From contig NZ_CAJQTX010000006.1 of assembly GCF_907163085.1 (NCBI RefSeq), forward strand, positions 124,001-188,000: 64,000 bases of DNA. The letters run 5' to 3'. Source of the DNA: Candidatus Accumulibacter sp. ACC003 (GTDB lineage: Bacteria > Pseudomonadota > Gammaproteobacteria > Burkholderiales > Rhodocyclaceae). The position numbers were made by a program, and so were the translations under genes. Positions 7,192-57,091 of the stretch are shown here, piece by piece; positions within the stretch are counted from its first letter, which is position 1, and each line of letters opens with the position of its first letter. The notes under the pieces are model-generated. The model was given only the letters and a program-made list of their open reading frames with translations. It did not search any database and was not told where the DNA came from.

Positions 7192-7452
7192 TCAGAGCAT
7201 CCGCCAGTCGGGAAACCCCGAATGCCACCACGATTCGTCCGCTTGCTGTTGCGCTGCGGCAGGCGCTCGATCGCTGGTCGCTGCTGCCGATTGCCGGCAA
7301 GTTGCCTGGAGTCCGGCAAACAGCAGCCTTAGACGCGGCACGTCGGCATATCGACGTTGGCATCCCGGCTCTTTCTCCTTGCTGCCCATCAGTCGATCGA
7401 GCGTGCCCCAGGCGTTCAGCCGGCGGCGGGTGAGAGCGCGAAGTGTAGTCAT
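7192..7452 (-). CDS. Doubtful small hypothetical protein
   Basis: An 86-codon frame starts MTTLRALTRRRLNAWG and is preceded on the minus strand by a CGGGGG run that could act as a weak ribosome site. The product is basic, with no membrane segment, signal peptide or motif I recognise. It could be chance coding potential in a GC-rich spacer. Confidence 0.22.
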   Translation of the reverse strand: MTTLRALTRRRLNAWGTLDRLMGSKEKEPGCQRRYADVPRLRLLFAGLQATCRQSAAATSDRAPAAAQQQADESWWHSGFPDWRML

Positions 7453-8008
7453 GACAAAACCCCCGGAACGAGATTCATGAAGACCGTAGCTGGCGGTCAT
7501 GATCGGCAGCGCCAAGACGCTGACGAGCTAGAGTTGCACAGCTTTCGGTCACGACCTGCGCACTACGTCACGATTTGGCGGCAATTGCCGACGCCGGCTA
7601 CGGCGGATTTGTCGGCTGCGGTCGCGTCGCGTGCCGGGCGGCTGGCCGGCGAAGGCGCGATGGCTGCTGATCGCCAGCAAAGCCGCTGACGCCGCGAGTC
7701 TTCGAAATTCTCGCGACGAGGCGGGTATCATGGCAGCGTCGGCGCCGGCTTCGTTCGGCAATTGATGCTTGACCAAGCAGCGGAGGGCAAAATGCCAGCC
7801 AGAAACGTTGAGTGCGGCATGATTCGCGTGACAGTCGCGTTGGCGACTCAGCAACCGCCCTTTCTGGCGCGAGACGAGTCGCTGTTGAGCAAAATCGTCA
7901 TGCGTTTCAACATCCATGGCGGCGCGACGCGCCGCGGGCAATGACGCTCGGTCCATCGCGCTCGGCGTGTCGTTGTCTGCGAGCTGGCTGGCGGCCGGGG
8001 TGCCGTTA

Positions 8009-8962
8009 ATGGTGCGCGTGCCGAATCTTGTCGAACTCGACGTTCCGCAAGCAGCAGCGGTTCGTGGCGAGTTGCTGCGTGGTCTGCTGGCGTGCCCGGC
8101 GGTGATCGCGCCCAAGTATCTCTACGACGCTCTCGGGTCGCGTCTGTTCGCGGCGATCACCGAGCTGCCCGAGTACTATCCGACGCGCACCGAGGCGGCA
8201 ATCCTGGCGGCTCATCGCGACGCCATCGCCGCCGAGTTGCCGCGCGGACTGACGCTGGTCGACGTCGGCGCGGGCAACTGTGAAAAGGCGGCGCGCTTGT
8301 TGAGGCCGCTGCGGGTGAGCACCTACGTCGCCGTCGATATCTCGCTGGAATTCCTGCGCGAGGCGCTTGAACGTCTGCAGCAACACCATCCCGACGTCAC
8401 CATGCTGGGCATCGGCAGCGACTTTTCGAGTCGTCTGCGGCTACCTGCGGTGCTTGGTGAGGGATCGCGCCTGCTGTTCTATCCGGGTTCGAGCATTGGT
8501 AACTTTATGCCGGCGCAGGCCTTGGACTTCCTGCGTCAATTACATGCCGCGGCGCAAGGCGGTGCGCTGTTGATCGGCGTCGACCTGCTCAAGCCGGTCG
8601 AGGTGCTCGAACGCGCCTACGACGATCCGCTGCAAGTCACCGCCGCCTTCAACCGCAATCTGCTGCGGCACGTCAACGATCTCGTCGGCTGCGATTTCGC
8701 CCTCGCCGACTGGCGGCACCGGGCGTTCTTCAACGCCGCGCAGTCGCGCATCGAAATGCATCTGGAAGCGCGGCGCGGCGTGACCGTTCGCTGGCCTGGC
8801 GGCGAACGCGCCTTTGCCGCGGCCGAGCGGATTCATACCGAGAACTCGTACAAATGGCGCGCCGACGATTTCGCCACGCTGTTGGTCGATGCCGGTTTTA
8901 CGGTGATCCGGCGCTGGACCGACGAGCGCGGCTGGTTCGCCGTATTCCTGGCCGGGGCCTGA
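8009..8962 (+). CDS. egtD: L-histidine N(alpha)-methyltransferase EgtD
   Basis: EgtD adds three methyl groups from S-adenosylmethionine to histidine, making hercynine, the precursor of ergothioneine and selenoneine. The 317-residue product shows the family marks: PKYLYDALGSRLFAAITELP, YYPTRTEAAIL, the SAM-binding LVDVGAGNCEKAARLL, YVAVDISLEFL, FYPGSSIGNFMP and the C-terminal IHTENSYKW. The ATG at 8009 gives a length close to known EgtD (about 320). The longer frame from 7916 adds residues with no family match. It converges on senA with a 20-bp gap. Confidence 0.94.
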   Translation: MVRVPNLVELDVPQAAAVRGELLRGLLACPAVIAPKYLYDALGSRLFAAITELPEYYPTRTEAAILAAHRDAIAAELPRGLTLVDVGAGNCEKAARLLRPLRVSTYVAVDISLEFLREALERLQQHHPDVTMLGIGSDFSSRLRLPAVLGEGSRLLFYPGSSIGNFMPAQALDFLRQLHAAAQGGALLIGVDLLKPVEVLERAYDDPLQVTAAFNRNLLRHVNDLVGCDFALADWRHRAFFNAAQSRIEMHLEARRGVTVRWPGGERAFAAAERIHTENSYKWRADDFATLLVDAGFTVIRRWTDERGWFAVFLAGA

Positions 8963-8982
8963 GCGGGGTGGCCGGCGGCTCG

Positions 8983-10224
8983 TCACACTTCGACCGCGCA
9001 GCTGCGGAAGCCGCTGACGATGTCGTTGCGTTCGGCCGTGAAGAAGTTACGGTAGCGCGGGTGTGCCAGTTCGGCTGCCGTCGCCCAGCTGCCGCCGCGC
9101 GGGACGTAGCGGCTGTCGAACCAGGGTGCCGAATAGTCGCGGTAGGGATGTGCGACAAAGCCCGGGTAGGGCCGGAAGCGGCTGGCAGTCCATTCCCAGA
9201 CCTCGCCCCAGTGGAAATTCTGCGCACTGCGTGCGCTGAGTGCAGCGCATTCCCACTCGCCTTCGCTGGGCAGCCGGCGTTGTGCCCAATGGCACCAGGC
9301 CTGGGCCTCGAAGCGGCTGAGGTGGGCCGCCGGTGCAGCCATCGGCAGTGGCTGCCATTGTCCGAAGCAGCGCCGTTGCCATTGACCGTCGACGCAGCGC
9401 AGATAGCGCGGTGCGGCCAGTGCGCTGGCCTCGCGCCACTGCCAGCCGGCAGGCGACCAGTAGCGCGCGTTGTGATAACCGCCGGCGACAACGAAGGGCA
9501 GGTAGCGTTGCCAGCTCACCGGCTCGGCGTCGATCGCGAAGGCCGGCAGGCGCACACGATGTCGCGCGAGTTCGTTGTCGAAGGCGAAACCCGGCCGCTG
9601 GTAACCGAGCAGCCACTCGCCAGCCGGCACGCGCAGGCTAGCTGTCGGCGGGCGCGGCAGCCCTTGTCGCGACGCCGCCAGCAGCGCTTCGGGCAGCGGC
9701 AGCTCGAGCGCCTGCGCCATGTACGTCGCTGCTTCGGCGTGCATCTGCTCGTGCAACAGCACCAGGCGGAAAAAGTAGAGGTCGGCCGGCGTGGTGGCGC
9801 TCCGCGCGAGCAGATCGAGTGTTTCGGCGAGCGCCGCGGCCAGATATTCGCGGCTAGCTTCGAGGTCGGGCAAGCGCAGGCGCCAGCGCGCCGCGTGCGC
9901 GACGATGCTGGAGTCGTAAAGCGCGTCGGCGCCAGCCAGGCGCCCGGCCGGCCGCGCGTGCTCGGGGTCGCAGGAAATTCCCCGCGAGCGCTGCAGGTTG
10001 CGCGCGATCCAGTAATCCTGAAACCAGCCAATATGGCCTATTTCCCACAAGGGTGGATTCAGTTGCGGCGAAAAAGGAACGCGCAGCGCCGCTCCGAGAG
10101 CCTGCTCGTAGGCGGTCAGCAAGGCCAGCGTGCGTTGGCGCGCGCCCGTCAGTGCCGCATCCAGGACCTGCACGTCGCCCTCGCGAGCGGCGTCGGCCGC
10201 TGCCCATCGACTGTCTGCACTCAT
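8983..10224 (-). CDS. senA: SenA, selenoneine synthase (EgtB-family non-heme iron enzyme)
   Basis: SenA joins hercynine to a selenosugar, forming the C-Se bond of selenoneine. The 413-residue product has an N-terminal DinB-like domain with the predicted iron ligands H64 (in EIGHIGWFQDYW), H158 and H162 (in LLHEQMHAEA). The C-terminal sulfatase-modifying-factor-like domain contains WGEVWEWTASRFRPYPGF and YVPRGGSWAT. It differs clearly from the EgtB at 55826. Adjacency to a SenB-like glycosyltransferase and a SelD favours SenA over EgtB. The ATG at 10224 was preferred to an upstream in-frame GTG at 10266, which has no ribosome site. Confidence 0.88.
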   Translation of the reverse strand: MSADSRWAAADAAREGDVQVLDAALTGARQRTLALLTAYEQALGAALRVPFSPQLNPPLWEIGHIGWFQDYWIARNLQRSRGISCDPEHARPAGRLAGADALYDSSIVAHAARWRLRLPDLEASREYLAAALAETLDLLARSATTPADLYFFRLVLLHEQMHAEAATYMAQALELPLPEALLAASRQGLPRPPTASLRVPAGEWLLGYQRPGFAFDNELARHRVRLPAFAIDAEPVSWQRYLPFVVAGGYHNARYWSPAGWQWREASALAAPRYLRCVDGQWQRRCFGQWQPLPMAAPAAHLSRFEAQAWCHWAQRRLPSEGEWECAALSARSAQNFHWGEVWEWTASRFRPYPGFVAHPYRDYSAPWFDSRYVPRGGSWATAAELAHPRYRNFFTAERNDIVSGFRSCAVEV

Positions 10225-10247
10225 CGATTCGTCATCCCGGGCCTCCT
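10221..10247 (-). promoter_or_regulatory. Ribosome site and four-codon mini-ORF overlapping the senA start
   Basis: On the minus strand a perfect AGGAGG lies at 10247-10242. It is 17 bases from the senA ATG, but only 6 bases from an out-of-frame ATG at 10235. That ATG opens a four-codon frame (M-T-N-R) whose TGA (10223-10221) overlaps the senA ATG as ATGA. Ribosomes could load at the mini-ORF and restart on senA. Alternatively, senA starts further upstream. Confidence 0.4.
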
Positions 10248-10268
10248 CGCTGAAAGTGTGCAGCACCC

Positions 10269-11279
10269 GTGAGCAGGTCGCCGCCGCTTCCGCAGCTGGT
10301 CATTGTGAGCCCGGCGCTCGCCGCTGCCAACAACGGCAACTGGCGGACGGCGCGTCGCTGGCAACGATTCCTTGCGCCAGAGGCCTCGACGCGCGTCGTC
10401 AGCCAATGGCCGGAGGCGTTCGCTGCCGACGACCAGGCGATGTTGGCCCTGCACGCCCGCCGCTCTGCACCATCGGTCGCCGCCTGGCGAGCCGCGCATC
10501 GCGTGGGTGGGCTGGCGCTGATCCTGACCGGCACCGACCTCTACCACGACATTCACCACGACGCCGCGGCGCAAGCGGCGCTGCACCTGGCCGACGCACT
10601 GGTGGTCCTGCAGGAACTTGGGCCGTTGGCCTTGCCTGCCGACCTGCGGGCCAGGGCGCGAATCATCTTCCAGTCGACCAGCCGCCGCCGCAGCGTGCCG
10701 AAAACAGGCCGCTACCTGTGCGCGCTGATGGTCGGTCACCTGCGCGACGAAAAGTCACCCGAGACGCTCTTTGCCGCCGCTCGCGCGCTTGCCGCGCACG
10801 ACGATATCCGCCTCGAGCACATTGGCGACGCCCTCGATCCGCGGCTCGCGGCCGCCGCTGTGGCGACGATGGCCGCCTGTGCCAACTACCGCTGGCTGGG
10901 TGGGCAGCCGCACGCGGCGACGCGTCGCCGCATCCAGCACGCGCACCTGCTGGTTCACGCCAGCCGCCTAGAAGGCGGCGCGCACGTGCTGATGGAAGCG
11001 GTGTGCAGCGGCACGCCGGTGATCGCCTCGGCGATCGACGGCAATATCGGCATGCTCGGCAAGGACTACGCGGGCTACTTCGCCTGCGGCGACGCGCCGG
11101 GACTGGCAGCCTTGCTCGTCCGCTGCCGCGCCAGCCAGGGCCAGACCGACGGCGTTCTGGCGGAGCTTGCCGCGCAGTGCCAGCGGCGCGCCGAGCGTTT
11201 CGCGCCGGCCAGCGAACAAGCCGCCGTGCGGCAACTGCTCGCCGACCTGCTCGGCAGCGCAGCGATCGGCGGACGCTAG
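10269..11279 (+). CDS. senB: SenB, selenosugar synthase (GT-B glycosyltransferase fold)
   Basis: SenB uses selenophosphate and a UDP-sugar to form a selenosugar for SenA. The 336-residue product resembles that family: N-terminal LVIVSPALAAANNGNWRTAR, then LALILTGTDLYHDI, and a C-terminal GT-B donor site HASRLEGGAHVLMEAVCSG with a conserved glutamate. The start is GTG at 10269, just before the conserved N-terminus; no nearby ATG fits and no strong ribosome site is visible. senA runs divergently from 10224, 44 bp away, leaving little room for two promoters. The stop TAG directly abuts the next ATG. Confidence 0.86.
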   Translation: MSRSPPLPQLVIVSPALAAANNGNWRTARRWQRFLAPEASTRVVSQWPEAFAADDQAMLALHARRSAPSVAAWRAAHRVGGLALILTGTDLYHDIHHDAAAQAALHLADALVVLQELGPLALPADLRARARIIFQSTSRRRSVPKTGRYLCALMVGHLRDEKSPETLFAAARALAAHDDIRLEHIGDALDPRLAAAAVATMAACANYRWLGGQPHAATRRRIQHAHLLVHASRLEGGAHVLMEAVCSGTPVIASAIDGNIGMLGKDYAGYFACGDAPGLAALLVRCRASQGQTDGVLAELAAQCQRRAERFAPASEQAAVRQLLADLLGSAAIGGR

Positions 11280-13556
11280 ATGCGCGGCAGCGAACAACCG
11301 GTGCTTCGCGATATCGTCCTGGTCGGCGGCGGCCACAGCCACGTCGTCGTCCTCGGGCGCTTCGCCATGCGCCCGGAGCCCGGCGTTCGCCTGACGCTGA
11401 TCTGCAGCGATACGCACACCCCGTATTCGGGAATGCTGCCCGGCTATATCGCCGGCCACTACAGCTACGATGAGGTGCATATCGACCTCCGCCGACTGGC
11501 CGAGTTTGCCGGTGCGCGCTACTACCAGGACGAGGTTGTCGGTCTCGAGCGGACGCAGCGCAAGGTGCTCTGTGCGCGGCGGCCACCGGTCGCCTACGAC
11601 CGTGTCTCGATCAACGTCGGCTCGATGCCGGCGGTCGATCGCGTCGCCGGCGCCGCCGAACACGCGCTTCCCGTCAAGCCGATCCGCCGCTTCAACGATC
11701 GCTGGCTGGCTTTGCTCGAGCGCGTTCGCCGACACGCCGGCGAGACGACCATTGCGCTGGTCGGCGCCGGCGCCGGTGGTGTCGAACTGACGTTGGCCAT
11801 GCAGTATCGCCTGCGCAACGAGCTACGCGCCCTGGGACGTAATCCCGACGAGCTGCACTTCCACCTTTTTTCCGCCGAACGCGACATCCTGCCCACCCAC
11901 AACGCGCGCGTGCGGCAGAGCTTCGAGCGCGTGCTGGCCGCGCGTGGCGTCGTCGTTCATCGCGCCGCCGAGGTCAGCGAGGTCAGCCACGGTCAATTAC
12001 GCACCCGATCGGGCGAGACGCTGTCCGCCGACGAGATCGTCTGGGTGACGCAGGCCGGCGCTGCTGCCTGGCTGCGCACTACCGGCCTGGCGCTCGACGA
12101 CAGCGGCTTCGTGCAGGTCCGCGCCAGCCTGCAGAGCGTCGATGATGCGCAGGTCTTTGCCGCTGGCGACTGCGCGGCGATGGTCGACGCGCCGCTCGAG
12201 AAAGCGGGTGTCTTCGCCGTTCGCCAGGGCCGGCCGCTGGCCGACAACCTGCGTCGCTCGCTGCTCGGGCAGCCGCTGCGCTCGTACCGGCCGCAGGCGC
12301 GCTGGCTGGCGCTGATCAGTACCGGCGACCGTTACGCCATTGCCTCGCGCGGCTTTCTCCATTTCAAGGGCGGCTGGGTGTGGCGCTGGAAGGACTGGGT
12401 CGACCGACGCTTCATGGCGCGTTTCAATGATCTGCCGTCAATGCTCGCCAGGCCGTCAGGCGTAGTGGCCAAGCTGCCACTCGATCAGGCCGAAGCGGCG
12501 CAGGCGATCTCGGCGGTCGCCATGCGCTGCGGTGGCTGCGGCGCCAAGGTCGGCGCCAGTGTGTTGTCGCGGGCGCTGGCGGCGGTGCACCCGATAGAGC
12601 ACGAAGACGTGCTGATCGGCCTGCACGCGCCCGACGACGCGGCTATCGTGCGCGTGCCATCGGGCAAGGCCATCGTCCAGACCGTCGATTTCTTTCGCGC
12701 GTTCATCGACGATCCCTGGTTGTTCGGCCGCATCGCCGCCAACCACGCGCTCGGCGACATCTTTGCCATGGGCGCCGAGGCGCAGACGGCGACGGCCATC
12801 GCCACGCTGCCGCCCGGACTCGAAAGAAAGGTCGAGGAAACGCTGTTGCAGATGATGTCCGGCGCCGTCGAAGTGCTCAATGAGGCCGGCTGTGCGCTGG
12901 TCGGTGGCCACAGCGGCGAGGGCGTCGAACTGGCGCTCGGCTTCGCCATCAACGGTCTGATCGACGAAAAGCTGGCAGGCGTGATGTGCAAGGGCGGCAT
13001 GCGCCCCGGCGACAACCTGATCCTCAGCAAGCCGATCGGCACCGGCACGCTGTTCGCCGCGCACGCCCGGCTGCAGGCCAGGGGGCGCTGGATCGACGAT
13101 GCGCTGGCGTCGATGGACCTGTCCAGCCGCCGCGCCGCCAATTGCCTGCGCGAGCACGGTGCGACGGCGTGCACCGACCTCACCGGTTTCGGCCTGCTTG
13201 GCCATCTGCTCGAGATGACGCGCGCGTCCGGCGTCGATGCCGAGCTCGACCTGGCCGCCCTGCCGGTTCTCGATGGCGCCGTCGACACCAGCGCCGCGGG
13301 TATCCTCAGTTCGCTGCAGCCGGCGAACGTGCGCCTGCGCCGCGCCCTGCGCAACCAGGAGGAAGGCCGCGCGCACGCCAACTACCTGCTGCTCTTCGAC
13401 CCGCAAACCGCCGGCGGCCTGCTGGCCAGCGTGCCGGCCGAGCGAGCCAGCGACTGCGTAGAGGCGCTGCGGTCGCTGGGTTACGAAAAGGCGGCGTGCA
13501 TCGGGCGGGTTCTGCCTCCTGGCGATGACCTCGCGCCAATCGAGTTGAAGGTATAG
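11280..13556 (+). CDS. selD: Selenide, water dikinase fused to an FAD/NAD(P) oxidoreductase (SenC/SelD)
   Basis: SelD/SenC makes selenophosphate from selenide and ATP. Residues 1-400 are a pyridine nucleotide-disulfide oxidoreductase-like domain, with an FAD motif DIVLVGGGHSHVVVLGRF, an NAD(P) motif IALVGAGAGGVELTLA and a second FAD motif VFAAGDCAA. Residues 410-758 are SelD, with RCGGCGAKVG at 416-425. Cys420 and Lys423 align with the catalytic Cys17 and Lys20 of E. coli SelD, and Cys replaces the selenocysteine used by some SelDs. Such fusions are known in SelD. Placement one base after senB argues for a dedicated SenC role, but it could also serve selenoprotein or tRNA selenation. Confidence 0.92.
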   Translation: MRGSEQPVLRDIVLVGGGHSHVVVLGRFAMRPEPGVRLTLICSDTHTPYSGMLPGYIAGHYSYDEVHIDLRRLAEFAGARYYQDEVVGLERTQRKVLCARRPPVAYDRVSINVGSMPAVDRVAGAAEHALPVKPIRRFNDRWLALLERVRRHAGETTIALVGAGAGGVELTLAMQYRLRNELRALGRNPDELHFHLFSAERDILPTHNARVRQSFERVLAARGVVVHRAAEVSEVSHGQLRTRSGETLSADEIVWVTQAGAAAWLRTTGLALDDSGFVQVRASLQSVDDAQVFAAGDCAAMVDAPLEKAGVFAVRQGRPLADNLRRSLLGQPLRSYRPQARWLALISTGDRYAIASRGFLHFKGGWVWRWKDWVDRRFMARFNDLPSMLARPSGVVAKLPLDQAEAAQAISAVAMRCGGCGAKVGASVLSRALAAVHPIEHEDVLIGLHAPDDAAIVRVPSGKAIVQTVDFFRAFIDDPWLFGRIAANHALGDIFAMGAEAQTATAIATLPPGLERKVEETLLQMMSGAVEVLNEAGCALVGGHSGEGVELALGFAINGLIDEKLAGVMCKGGMRPGDNLILSKPIGTGTLFAAHARLQARGRWIDDALASMDLSSRRAANCLREHGATACTDLTGFGLLGHLLEMTRASGVDAELDLAALPVLDGAVDTSAAGILSSLQPANVRLRRALRNQEEGRAHANYLLLFDPQTAGGLLASVPAERASDCVEALRSLGYEKAACIGRVLPPGDDLAPIELKV

Positions 13557-13582
13557 CGGCGAAGATGGGTGGGACTTCGCCG
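13557..13582 (+). terminator. Possible terminator hairpin after selD
   Basis: CGGCGAAG (13557-13564) and CTTCGCCG (13575-13582) form a perfect 8-bp stem immediately after the selD stop codon, with a 10-base loop. No T-run follows, so a Rho-independent role is uncertain. It may instead protect the transcript end. Confidence 0.4.
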
Positions 13583-13821
13583 AACTCGGCATCGCGTGCA
13601 GTGTCGGTGGTCTGGCGATTGCCGATGCGTAACACGGGGCTATAGCCGCCTGCCTACCGGACGACTATCAATAGCGCAGCCCTGCGTGAAATTCAGGGAT
13701 GGTGGAAGCCTGTCTGTCCGGGGTCCACACGATGGCCGAGATCGGCTGCCATTTCGCGGCAAATCTGCGAAGCGTCGCAGTGGAATGCCGCAACGTGAGC
13801 ACTACCCCTTTTCCTTTCCTT

Positions 13822-14217
13822 CTAGCCAGCAATTAGTGGGGTGGTACGCCCAGGAAACGCACGGAGAAGCTTGCCGTCCATGGTCACGACCCTGGTATCG
13901 AGCTTCTTTGCCAGCGCAACAAATTCGCAGTCGTATGCGGAGCAATCACTGGTCTTCACGAGTTCAAGGACATCGGTCGAGACAACCTCGAACTCCAGAC
14001 CATCAAGCAGGTCTTCGGCGGCCTGCTGTATGCTCATGGCCTGCTCAAAGGTGAGCGCTTTTCGCCTCATGTAGCCGGCCAGGATGTTTCTGAATTCGCT
14101 CCGCCACAAGATCGGCGCCGCCCATTCATGGTCGCGCTCGAATAATGCTTCGGCGGCGGCAGTGAACTCGCTCGGCAGGTAGAGATAAGCAATGATGTTG
14201 GTGTCAGCCACAATCAT
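13822..14217 (-). CDS. PIN-domain toxin (VapC/FitB family)
   Basis: The 131-residue product is a PIN endoribonuclease candidate. It starts MIVADTNIIAYLYLPSEFT and has the four expected acidic residues: D5, E41 (in LWRSEFRNIL), D96 (in SAYDCEFVALA) and D114 (in VVTMDGKLL). Family members cleave tRNA or rRNA when the antitoxin is lost. Its ATG overlaps the stop of the upstream antitoxin by 4 bp (ATGA), the usual coupled arrangement. Confidence 0.88.
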   Translation of the reverse strand: MIVADTNIIAYLYLPSEFTAAAEALFERDHEWAAPILWRSEFRNILAGYMRRKALTFEQAMSIQQAAEDLLDGLEFEVVSTDVLELVKTSDCSAYDCEFVALAKKLDTRVVTMDGKLLRAFPGRTTPLIAG

Positions 14218-14459
14218 GGGCGGCCCTGGCGCTTTTCCACGTCGATATCTGGCGCTCGGAACTTGTCGTGCAGCAATGCGCCTCGTAGCGCACGCGCTTG
14301 CGCCAGTCTCTCGTCGGGTGTCTGCCTGGCAGGCAGTAGCACGGCCTCCAGGCAGACAATCGCCTCGCTGTTCAGACTGCGGCGGTGCGTTTCTGCGGAA
14401 TGCTTCAAACGCTCATACACCGTGTCCGGGATGTTCTTCAGGGTAAGGGTCGTCGGCAT
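14214..14459 (-). CDS. Ribbon-helix-helix antitoxin (FitA-like)
   Basis: The 81-residue product begins MPTTLTLKNIPDTVYERLK, a ribbon-helix-helix DNA-binding N-terminus of the FitA type, followed by AETHRRSLNSEAIVCLE. It should bind the PIN toxin and repress the pair. The ATG at 14459 was chosen because GGAGAG lies just upstream; the longer frame from 14513 adds residues without family character. Confidence 0.85.
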   Translation of the reverse strand: MPTTLTLKNIPDTVYERLKHSAETHRRSLNSEAIVCLEAVLLPARQTPDERLAQARALRGALLHDKFRAPDIDVEKRQGRP

Positions 14460-55825: not shown

Positions 55826-57091
55826 ATGCCCGAGATCACCTCGTCCCGCGAAGTACTATCAACCCTCGACGCGTCTCTGCGCGCGCGCCTGGCAGAGCGC
55901 TATCGCCGTGTGCGCGCGCACAGCCTGGCGCTCGCCGCACCGCTGTCGGCCGAGGACCAGTGCATCCAGTCGATGGCCGACGCCAGCCCGACCAAGTGGC
56001 ACCTGGCGCACAGTAGCTGGTTCTTCGAAGCCGTCGTTCTGCAGCCGCATGTCGCCTCGTATGCGGCTTTCGACGAGCGTTTCGCGCGGCTCTTCAATTC
56101 GTATTACGAGGCGCTGGGCCCGCGTCACCCGCGGCCGCAGCGCGGTCTGCTGACGCGGCCGTCGCTCGGCGAAGTGCAGGCTTTTCGCGAGCACGTTGAT
56201 GCCGCCGTGCTGGCGCTGATCGCCGGCGCCGACGCGCTCACCTGGGACGTCGCCGCGCCCTTGCTCGAGCTCGGTCTGAACCACGAGCAGCAGCACCAGG
56301 AGCTGATCGTCACCGACATTGTGCACGCGCTGTCGTGCAATCCGCTGCTGCCGGCTTATCGGCCCCTGGCGACGCCGCTGCCGCGGTCGACCCGCACGCC
56401 GCTGGCGCTGCACTGGCTGGCCATGACGGGCGGCGTAAGGAACGTCGGGCACGACGGCGAGGGTTTCGCCTTCGACAACGAGCGGCCTCGTCACGCGGTG
56501 CTCTTGCCGGCGTTCCTGATCGCCGATCGCCTGGTCGCTGGCGGTGACTACGCGCAGTTCATCGCCGACAGCGGCTACCAGCGCCCCGAACTGTGGTTGT
56601 CCGACGGCTGGGCGGCGGTGCAGGCGAACGGCTGGCGGGCGCCGGCGTACTGGTTGGCGCCCGGTGATGCGCGCGCGCCGGCGGCGCACTGGCAGGTGTT
56701 CGGCGTGCACGGCGTGCAGCCGCTGGACGCCGCGGCGCCGGTCGCGCACATCAGTTTCTACGAAGCGGCGGCCTACGCCGAGTGGGCCGGCGCGCGCCTG
56801 CCGACCGAGTTCGAATGGGAGGCCGCCTGCGGTGTCCCGGCGATCAGCGAGATGTACGGCGAGGTCTGGCAATGGACGCGTTCATCGTACGACCCTTACC
56901 CGGGCTTCCGGCCGCTGTGCGGCGCCGTCAGCGAGTACAACGGCAAGTTCATGGTCGGGCAGCAGGTGCTGCGCGGGAGCAGCAGCGCGACACCCGCCGG
57001 CCATGGCCGGGCGACCTACCGCAACTTCTTCCCGCCGGCCGCGCGCTGGCAGTTTGCCGGGCTGCGCCTGGCCAAAGATGCGCCACGCTGA
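55826..57091 (+). CDS. egtB: EgtB, ergothioneine-type sulfoxide synthase
   Basis: EgtB joins hercynine to a thiol (cysteine or gamma-glutamylcysteine) and oxidises it. The 421-residue protein has the DinB-like iron site H62 (in KWHLAHSSWFFE), H153 and H157 (in LNHEQQHQELI). The C-terminal sulfatase-modifying-factor-like domain has YGEVWQWTRSSYDPYPGF and YRNFFPPAARWQF. The sequence is typical of EgtB, and clearly different from SenA at 8983. A GGGAG ribosome site precedes the ATG at 55826. No EgtA, EgtC or EgtE is visible, so the thiol donor and the lyase step are open. EgtD is 47 kb away. Confidence 0.92.
   Translation: MPEITSSREVLSTLDASLRARLAERYRRVRAHSLALAAPLSAEDQCIQSMADASPTKWHLAHSSWFFEAVVLQPHVASYAAFDERFARLFNSYYEALGPRHPRPQRGLLTRPSLGEVQAFREHVDAAVLALIAGADALTWDVAAPLLELGLNHEQQHQELIVTDIVHALSCNPLLPAYRPLATPLPRSTRTPLALHWLAMTGGVRNVGHDGEGFAFDNERPRHAVLLPAFLIADRLVAGGDYAQFIADSGYQRPELWLSDGWAAVQANGWRAPAYWLAPGDARAPAAHWQVFGVHGVQPLDAAAPVAHISFYEAAAYAEWAGARLPTEFEWEAACGVPAISEMYGEVWQWTRSSYDPYPGFRPLCGAVSEYNGKFMVGQQVLRGSSSATPAGHGRATYRNFFPPAARWQFAGLRLAKDAPR

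Follow-up and report, generated by a model that had tools for sequence, protein, structure and literature searches.

In the described route to selenoneine, SenC forms selenophosphate, SenB the selenosugar, and SenA joins the selenosugar to hercynine, after which the selenoxide eliminates to selenoneine (PMC9814287 and the available part of PMC10702425); SenC accepts selenide, not sulfide, according to the same available part of PMC10702425. A second described system, in which an NADH dehydrogenase-like domain (Ndh) precedes selenophosphate synthetase (SelD), had been published by 2008, all fusions covered by the accessible text of PMC2398784 carrying a CxxC active site, and NADH dehydrogenase has been proposed to take part in producing the substrate of SelD (accessible text of PMC2432076). 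Here we analyze a 64,000-nucleotide stretch (the window) of contig NZ_CAJQTX010000006.1 from Candidatus Accumulibacter sp. ACC003, which at positions 8009-13556 holds egtD, senA, senB and a gene for an oxidoreductase fused to SelD. We read this locus as an ordinary, complete sen cluster predicted to make selenoneine (probability about 0.92). Of the named relatives, Candidatus Accumulibacter, a wastewater organism, is the closest by SenB and SenA.

The cluster shares with that of Variovorax paradoxus DSM 30034 (senA, senB, senC) the same SenA and SenB families and a selenophosphate synthetase gene beside senB, but differs in having egtD inside the cluster and SelD fused to a flavin adenine dinucleotide (FAD) oxidoreductase. 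The same four genes in the same order and on the same strands are found in Candidatus Accumulibacter regalis (L003), a Propionivibrio dicarboxylicus metagenome-assembled genome (L004) and other Betaproteobacteria, from which the window differs in sequence only (SenB 72% and the fusion 82% identical in L003). Neither the pathway nor the fusion as such is new, and many loci share the layout, so that the locus mostly adds another likely selenoneine producer. The first-pass annotation had already described the pathway as not new and had placed four enzyme genes within 5.6 kb; open reading frames lie at, or within a few codons of, where it put them, and all four score over the cut-offs of their models.

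Genes were named with NCBIfam profile models at their curated cut-offs, and Pfam matches agree with these names at fold level. The enzyme identities stand on these models and on relatives of solved structure, with a tree for the synthases; the conserved catalytic residues and the gene content of the genome were also established. The selenoneine synthase gene, senA (8983-10224, minus strand), encodes a protein scoring 515 bits with the SenA model NF041186 (cut-off 420, E 1e-154); against solved chains it reaches 410 bits with selenoneine synthase (8ryz/8k5i, E 1e-121), 176 with OvsA and 173 with EgtB. An EgtB-like three-histidine iron site is present (WEIGHIGWF at 60 and HEQMH at 158, aligned to the histidine motifs of 4x8b), the assignment of the iron-binding histidines being our assumption. 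A tree of 105 proteins of the SenA/EgtB family, four solved ones serving as anchors, was built by a quick search (support by the Shimodaira-Hasegawa-like approximate likelihood-ratio test, SH-aLRT, only). In it, five branches group the SenA of the window with solved SenA 8ryz and leave out OvsA, the EgtB of the window and the two EgtB chains (SH-aLRT 64, 96, 97, 78 and 99), and two further branches make a SenA/EgtB split with OvsA on the SenA side (SH-aLRT 0 and 96).

Since SenA and EgtB are homologous, and the EgtB model matches the window SenA at 257 bits, one could suppose that the synthase is an EgtB and that the cluster makes ergothioneine. However, this score is under the EgtB cut-off of 360, the SenA score is 95 bits over its own cut-off, the tree places the protein with SenA, senB and selD are neighbours of the synthase gene, and a true EgtB is encoded elsewhere in the window. 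On the model scores and the tree we reject the EgtB assignment, in line with the earlier call of SenA, and we consider an ergothioneine cluster highly improbable. Just as improbable is a cluster for another selenium compound, in which the selenosugar made by SenB would be passed to a different acceptor: OvsA, which forms a selenoxide in a different pathway, follows as the closest solved relative after selenoneine synthase, but the scores are 410 bits for the latter and 176 for OvsA, and egtD, the source of hercynine, adjoins the synthase gene.

The Se-glycosyltransferase (selenosugar synthase) gene, senB (10269-11279, plus strand), starts with GTG. Its product scores 406 bits with the SenB model TIGR04348 (cut-off 300, E 7e-122) and 391-397 bits with the solved SenB chains (E 6e-116 to 9e-118), the next match being a capsule polymerase at 23 bits, so that model and solved relatives confirm the glycosyltransferase as SenB. 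The first-pass annotation had named two outcomes that would refute it, a synthase falling with EgtB and a glycosyltransferase falling outside SenB; both checks came out in favour of SenA and SenB. Residues N20, T23, K158, E231 and E239 and the motif EGGAHV matter in V. paradoxus SenB (available part of PMC10891094), and the window protein retains all of them as N24, T27, K162, E235, E243 and EGGAHV. V157 of V. paradoxus corresponds to E161 in the window; among 80 loci looked at, 42 bear the motif, with E at this position in 38 and V in 4. These loci are the best 80 of 242 SenB relatives from a contig scan from which the genome of the window and its closest kin may be missing, and the layout fractions given below hold for this sample. 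Among plasmids, SenB was found in 3 of 72,556 records, each below 60% identity.

Converging on senA, with 20 bp between the stops, lies egtD (8009-8962, plus strand; ATG at 8009, longest frame from 7916), for the L-histidine N-alpha-methyltransferase that makes hercynine. Its product scores 364 bits with TIGR03438 (cut-off 290.9, E 4e-109), and this is the one egtD match in the genome.

The fusion gene (11280-13556, plus strand) begins with an ATG directly after the senB stop, with 0 bases between, an abutment that makes co-transcription with senB in a single unit probable. Its N-terminal half (11280-12464) is an FAD/NAD(P)H oxidoreductase of NDH-2/FSP1-like type, scoring 508.5 bits with TIGR03169 (Nterm_to_SelD; cut-off 310, E 1e-152) and matching solved NDH-2 and FSP1 chains in phmmer. 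The C-terminal half (12495-13556) is a SelD, predicted to act as SenC, which scores 291 bits with TIGR00476 (cut-off 125, E 1e-86) and matches solved selenide, water dikinases in phmmer. Its active-site codons (12528-12548) spell CGGCGAK (C417, C420, K423), aligned to solved SelD chains; we take Cys17 and Lys20 to be the catalytic pair of E. coli SelD. The model TIGR04369 ('fusion_not_SelD') gives 477 bits on the fusion, under its cut-off of 700. Both halves being over their model cut-offs, the reported fusion of SelD to an oxidoreductase is upheld. The window fusion resembles that of PMC2398784 in the order of domains and the CxxC site and differs in its place directly behind senB, the available part of that paper making no tie to SenB or selenoneine. 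Our literature search, which did not cover Kayrouz 2022 and 2024 and drew in part on partial texts, found no treatment of a link between the fusion and selenoneine.

Layout was counted in the 66 of the 80 loci that have 2.3 kb or more of flank to either side of senB. Here senA is adjacent to senB and divergent in 36 loci, adjacent and in the same direction in 2 and not adjacent in 28. In 24 of the 36 divergent pairs, a plus-strand egtD precedes senA and lies no more than 3.3 kb from senB; in at least 4 of these (L035, L043, L072, L073) about 1-2 kb of other sequence separates egtD from senA. The whole layout of the window recurs in 14 of the 66 loci, L035 included. The arrangement had been called unusual; these counts rule that out, as each element is common, and the available part of PMC2398784 puts Ndh-SelD fusions in print by 2008.

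The 28 loci with non-adjacent senA could suggest SenB without SenA as a new pathway. We reject this idea: SenA is over the cut-off in 23 of the 27 genomes searched (L051 left out), in L025, L027, L036, L068 and L079 senA and senB share a locus, 3-7 kb apart, and senA is mostly just unlinked. The genomes of L028, L030, L034 and L048 have no SenA over the cut-off, either because the assembly is incomplete or because the selenosugar is used differently. In Limnobacter and kin (L040, L058) a minus-strand gene takes the place of senA; it resembles a methyltransferase in L058 and starts similarly in L040, and in L051 and L077 a longer minus-strand frame stands there, upstream of senB; SenA is over the cut-off elsewhere in the genomes of L040, L058 and L077. 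The genome G121 (C10, locus L165) has two SenA-model matches over the cut-off, one of them about 7 kb from an Ndh-SelD fusion and on a different contig from senB.

Elsewhere in the genome of the window there is a stand-alone SelD (C1:449634, 431 bits, active site GGGCGCK) and a SelU (C4:565967, 364 bits), and a search of this genome for SelA gave no match; the fusion is therefore an extra selenophosphate synthetase beside the stand-alone SelD, and the latter likely serves tRNA selenouridine. It might instead be argued that the stand-alone SelD feeds both SenB and SelU while the fusion has another redox job and is not the selenium donor. A full stand-alone enzyme is indeed at hand, 17 of the 66 loci have no SelD of either kind after senB, and in the genus mate G125, without SenB over the cut-off, the oxidoreductase half is intact (TIGR03169, 486 bits) with the SelD cysteines lost, so that the front half seems useful alone there. 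Against this stand the position of the fusion directly after senB without a gap, its occurrence in 31 of the 66 loci at the place where 18 have a stand-alone selD, and a SelD half well over its cut-off with CxxC in nearly every full-length fusion. We judge the fusion unlikely to be a bystander and retain it as the predicted SenC of the cluster.

CGGCGAK is present in 39 of the 40 fused SelD of the 80 named loci, the remaining one giving no pattern match, and GGGCGCK in 21 of 21 stand-alone SelD. Among 40 full-length fusions (the window, 35 named loci and 4 from further genomes), 39 retain C417 and C420, and all 40 retain C42 and C98 in the flavoprotein half. The exception is the fusion of G125 (L166:6217-8466, minus strand), which has RRDGSG in place of CGGCGAK and is 55% identical to the window fusion in the SelD half and 66% in the front half. 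As one case, this loss fits relaxed selection on SelD after loss of SenB; the other fusion genome without SenB over the cut-off, G028, keeps the SelD active site.

In a survey of 150 genomes of the host's family, TIGR03169 is over the cut-off in 28, of which 10 have it in a frame of at least 700 residues, i.e. as a fusion. Fusion and SenB tend to occur together: SenB is over the cut-off in 8 of the 10 fusion genomes and in 21 of the 140 others (Fisher p 3e-5, relatedness ignored). When what follows senB (fusion 41, stand-alone SelD 20, none 19, unknown 1) is mapped onto an 81-row SenB tree, at least 15 changes are required, and fused and stand-alone SelD therefore often replace each other. What is new here is modest: these repeated swaps beside senB, the cysteine loss in a genus mate without SenB, and senA and senB starts that abut or overlap.

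We infer the pathway chemistry by orthology and, with it, the role of the flavoprotein half, the sharing of hercynine and expression of the genes, as follows. EgtD would methylate histidine to hercynine, and the fused SelD would make selenophosphate, the flavoprotein half most likely supplying selenium, or keeping it, as selenide. SenB would then move selenium from selenophosphate onto a uridine diphosphate (UDP) sugar, and SenA would couple the selenosugar to hercynine with oxygen and iron to a selenoxide that falls apart to selenoneine, while EgtB would take the same hercynine to ergothioneine. A further proposal, which we put forward tentatively and at somewhat less than even odds, is that the fused Ndh-SelD is a self-contained selenium activator: the flavoprotein half might use NAD(P)H to reduce Se(0), perselenide or glutathione-bound selenium and hand selenide straight to the CxxC of the SelD half, giving SenB its selenophosphate without free selenide and apart from the SelD for tRNA selenouridine, with fused and ordinary SelD as rival modules repeatedly swapped beside senB. 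The locus raises the question why a flavoprotein-SelD fusion should so frequently be the selenium donor of sen clusters despite an ordinary SelD in the genome.

A second question concerns the division of hercynine between SenA and EgtB with a single EgtD. The window's second synthase gene, egtB (55826-57091, plus strand), has no egtD beside it, lies about 42 kb from the sen cluster and was absent from the first-pass annotation. Its product scores 522.5 bits with the EgtB model TIGR03440 (cut-off 360) and 332 bits, under the cut-off of 420, with the SenA model. The best solved match is EgtB (Cabther) 6o6l (E 2e-140), presumably from Chloracidobacterium thermophilum, to which it is also joined in the tree (branch SH-aLRT 73 and 100). 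On these scores and this placement it is a true EgtB, an ergothioneine sulfoxide synthase outside the sen cluster. Because the genome has one egtD, a single EgtD probably feeds both SenA and EgtB, with hercynine shared between them. Within the family survey, EgtB is found in 34 of the 150 genomes, SenB over the cut-off in 29, and both in seven (G000, G003, G008, G009, G017, G055, G132); in six of these seven there is a single egtD match, and in G055 there are two, of which one is partial.

Several observations weigh against our account of the locus. The synthase tree was made by a quick method, and the program warns of the long branch of the EgtB 4x8b. The fusion is not strictly tied to selenoneine, because the fusion genomes G028 and G125 have no SenB over the cut-off, and in the genus mate G018 the fusion is far from senB. 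The co-occurrence of EgtB and SenB in seven of the 29 SenB genomes compares with 6.6 expected by chance, and we reject SenA plus EgtB in one genome as a selected pattern.

A putative selenate-binding protein (TIGR04553, 378 bits) is encoded at C4:224706 of the same genome, on another contig than the sen cluster. Over the cut-off in 8 of 33 genomes searched, this family occurs in 8 of the 29 with SenB and in 0 of the 4 without. Genes for TIGR04553, a putative selenate ABC transporter binding protein, also lie near some sen clusters, e.g. at L011:5981-6844.

The divergent 5' ends of senA and senB leave a gap of 44 bp (10225-10268) between the senA ATG at 10224 and the senB GTG, or of 2 bp if senA starts at the in-frame GTG at 10266. 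Across 44 divergent pairs (43 named loci and the window, under a laxer flank rule than for the 66-locus counts), the nearest starts are a median of 13 bp apart and overlap in 17, starts having been set mechanically and being approximate; a median of 111 bp separates the conserved residues of SenA and SenB. With starts so close or overlapping, promoters must sit inside the neighbouring gene or at its border. Mean guanine plus cytosine content falls at the junction from about 0.70 to 0.47-0.61 over some 60 bp.

In 79 named loci and the window (L017 was left out, its match having no senB start), the motif TATAAN stands 6 (n=15) or 7 (n=2) bases before the nearest senB start in 17 of 80, e.g. in L009, L012, L029, L061 and L063. 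These comprise 13 of 44 divergent loci and 4 of 36 others, and no other spacing from 0 to 59 bases is seen. TATAAN at 5-8 bases accompanies 20 of the 16,685 ATGs of the named loci; 15 of the 17 senB sites start with ATG and so should be among those 20. This spacing points to a leaderless senB mRNA in those relatives, as a prediction from motif position. A -35 box is not conserved at these senB sites, the TATAAN state changes at least 5 times on the SenB tree, and our literature search found no paper on selenoneine and a leaderless transcript. For the window itself we reject such a promoter: it has no TATAAN, and a wider pattern occurs in 1 of 29 family loci, the window being among the other 28.

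Scanning 7300-14300 for promoters yielded 2 promoter-like sites where 0.6 were expected, one of them on the minus strand inside senB (10330-10302). Under this site, the codon for Ile12 of SenB is ATT in 15 of the 44 divergent loci and in 6 of the 33 others, from which we conclude nothing. Terminator-like sites in the same interval number 5 against 4.6 expected, and Rfam at its gathering threshold gave 0 matches in the window. Just 3' of the fusion, at 13822-14217 on the minus strand, lies a gene for a PIN-domain protein, perhaps a VapC-like toxin.

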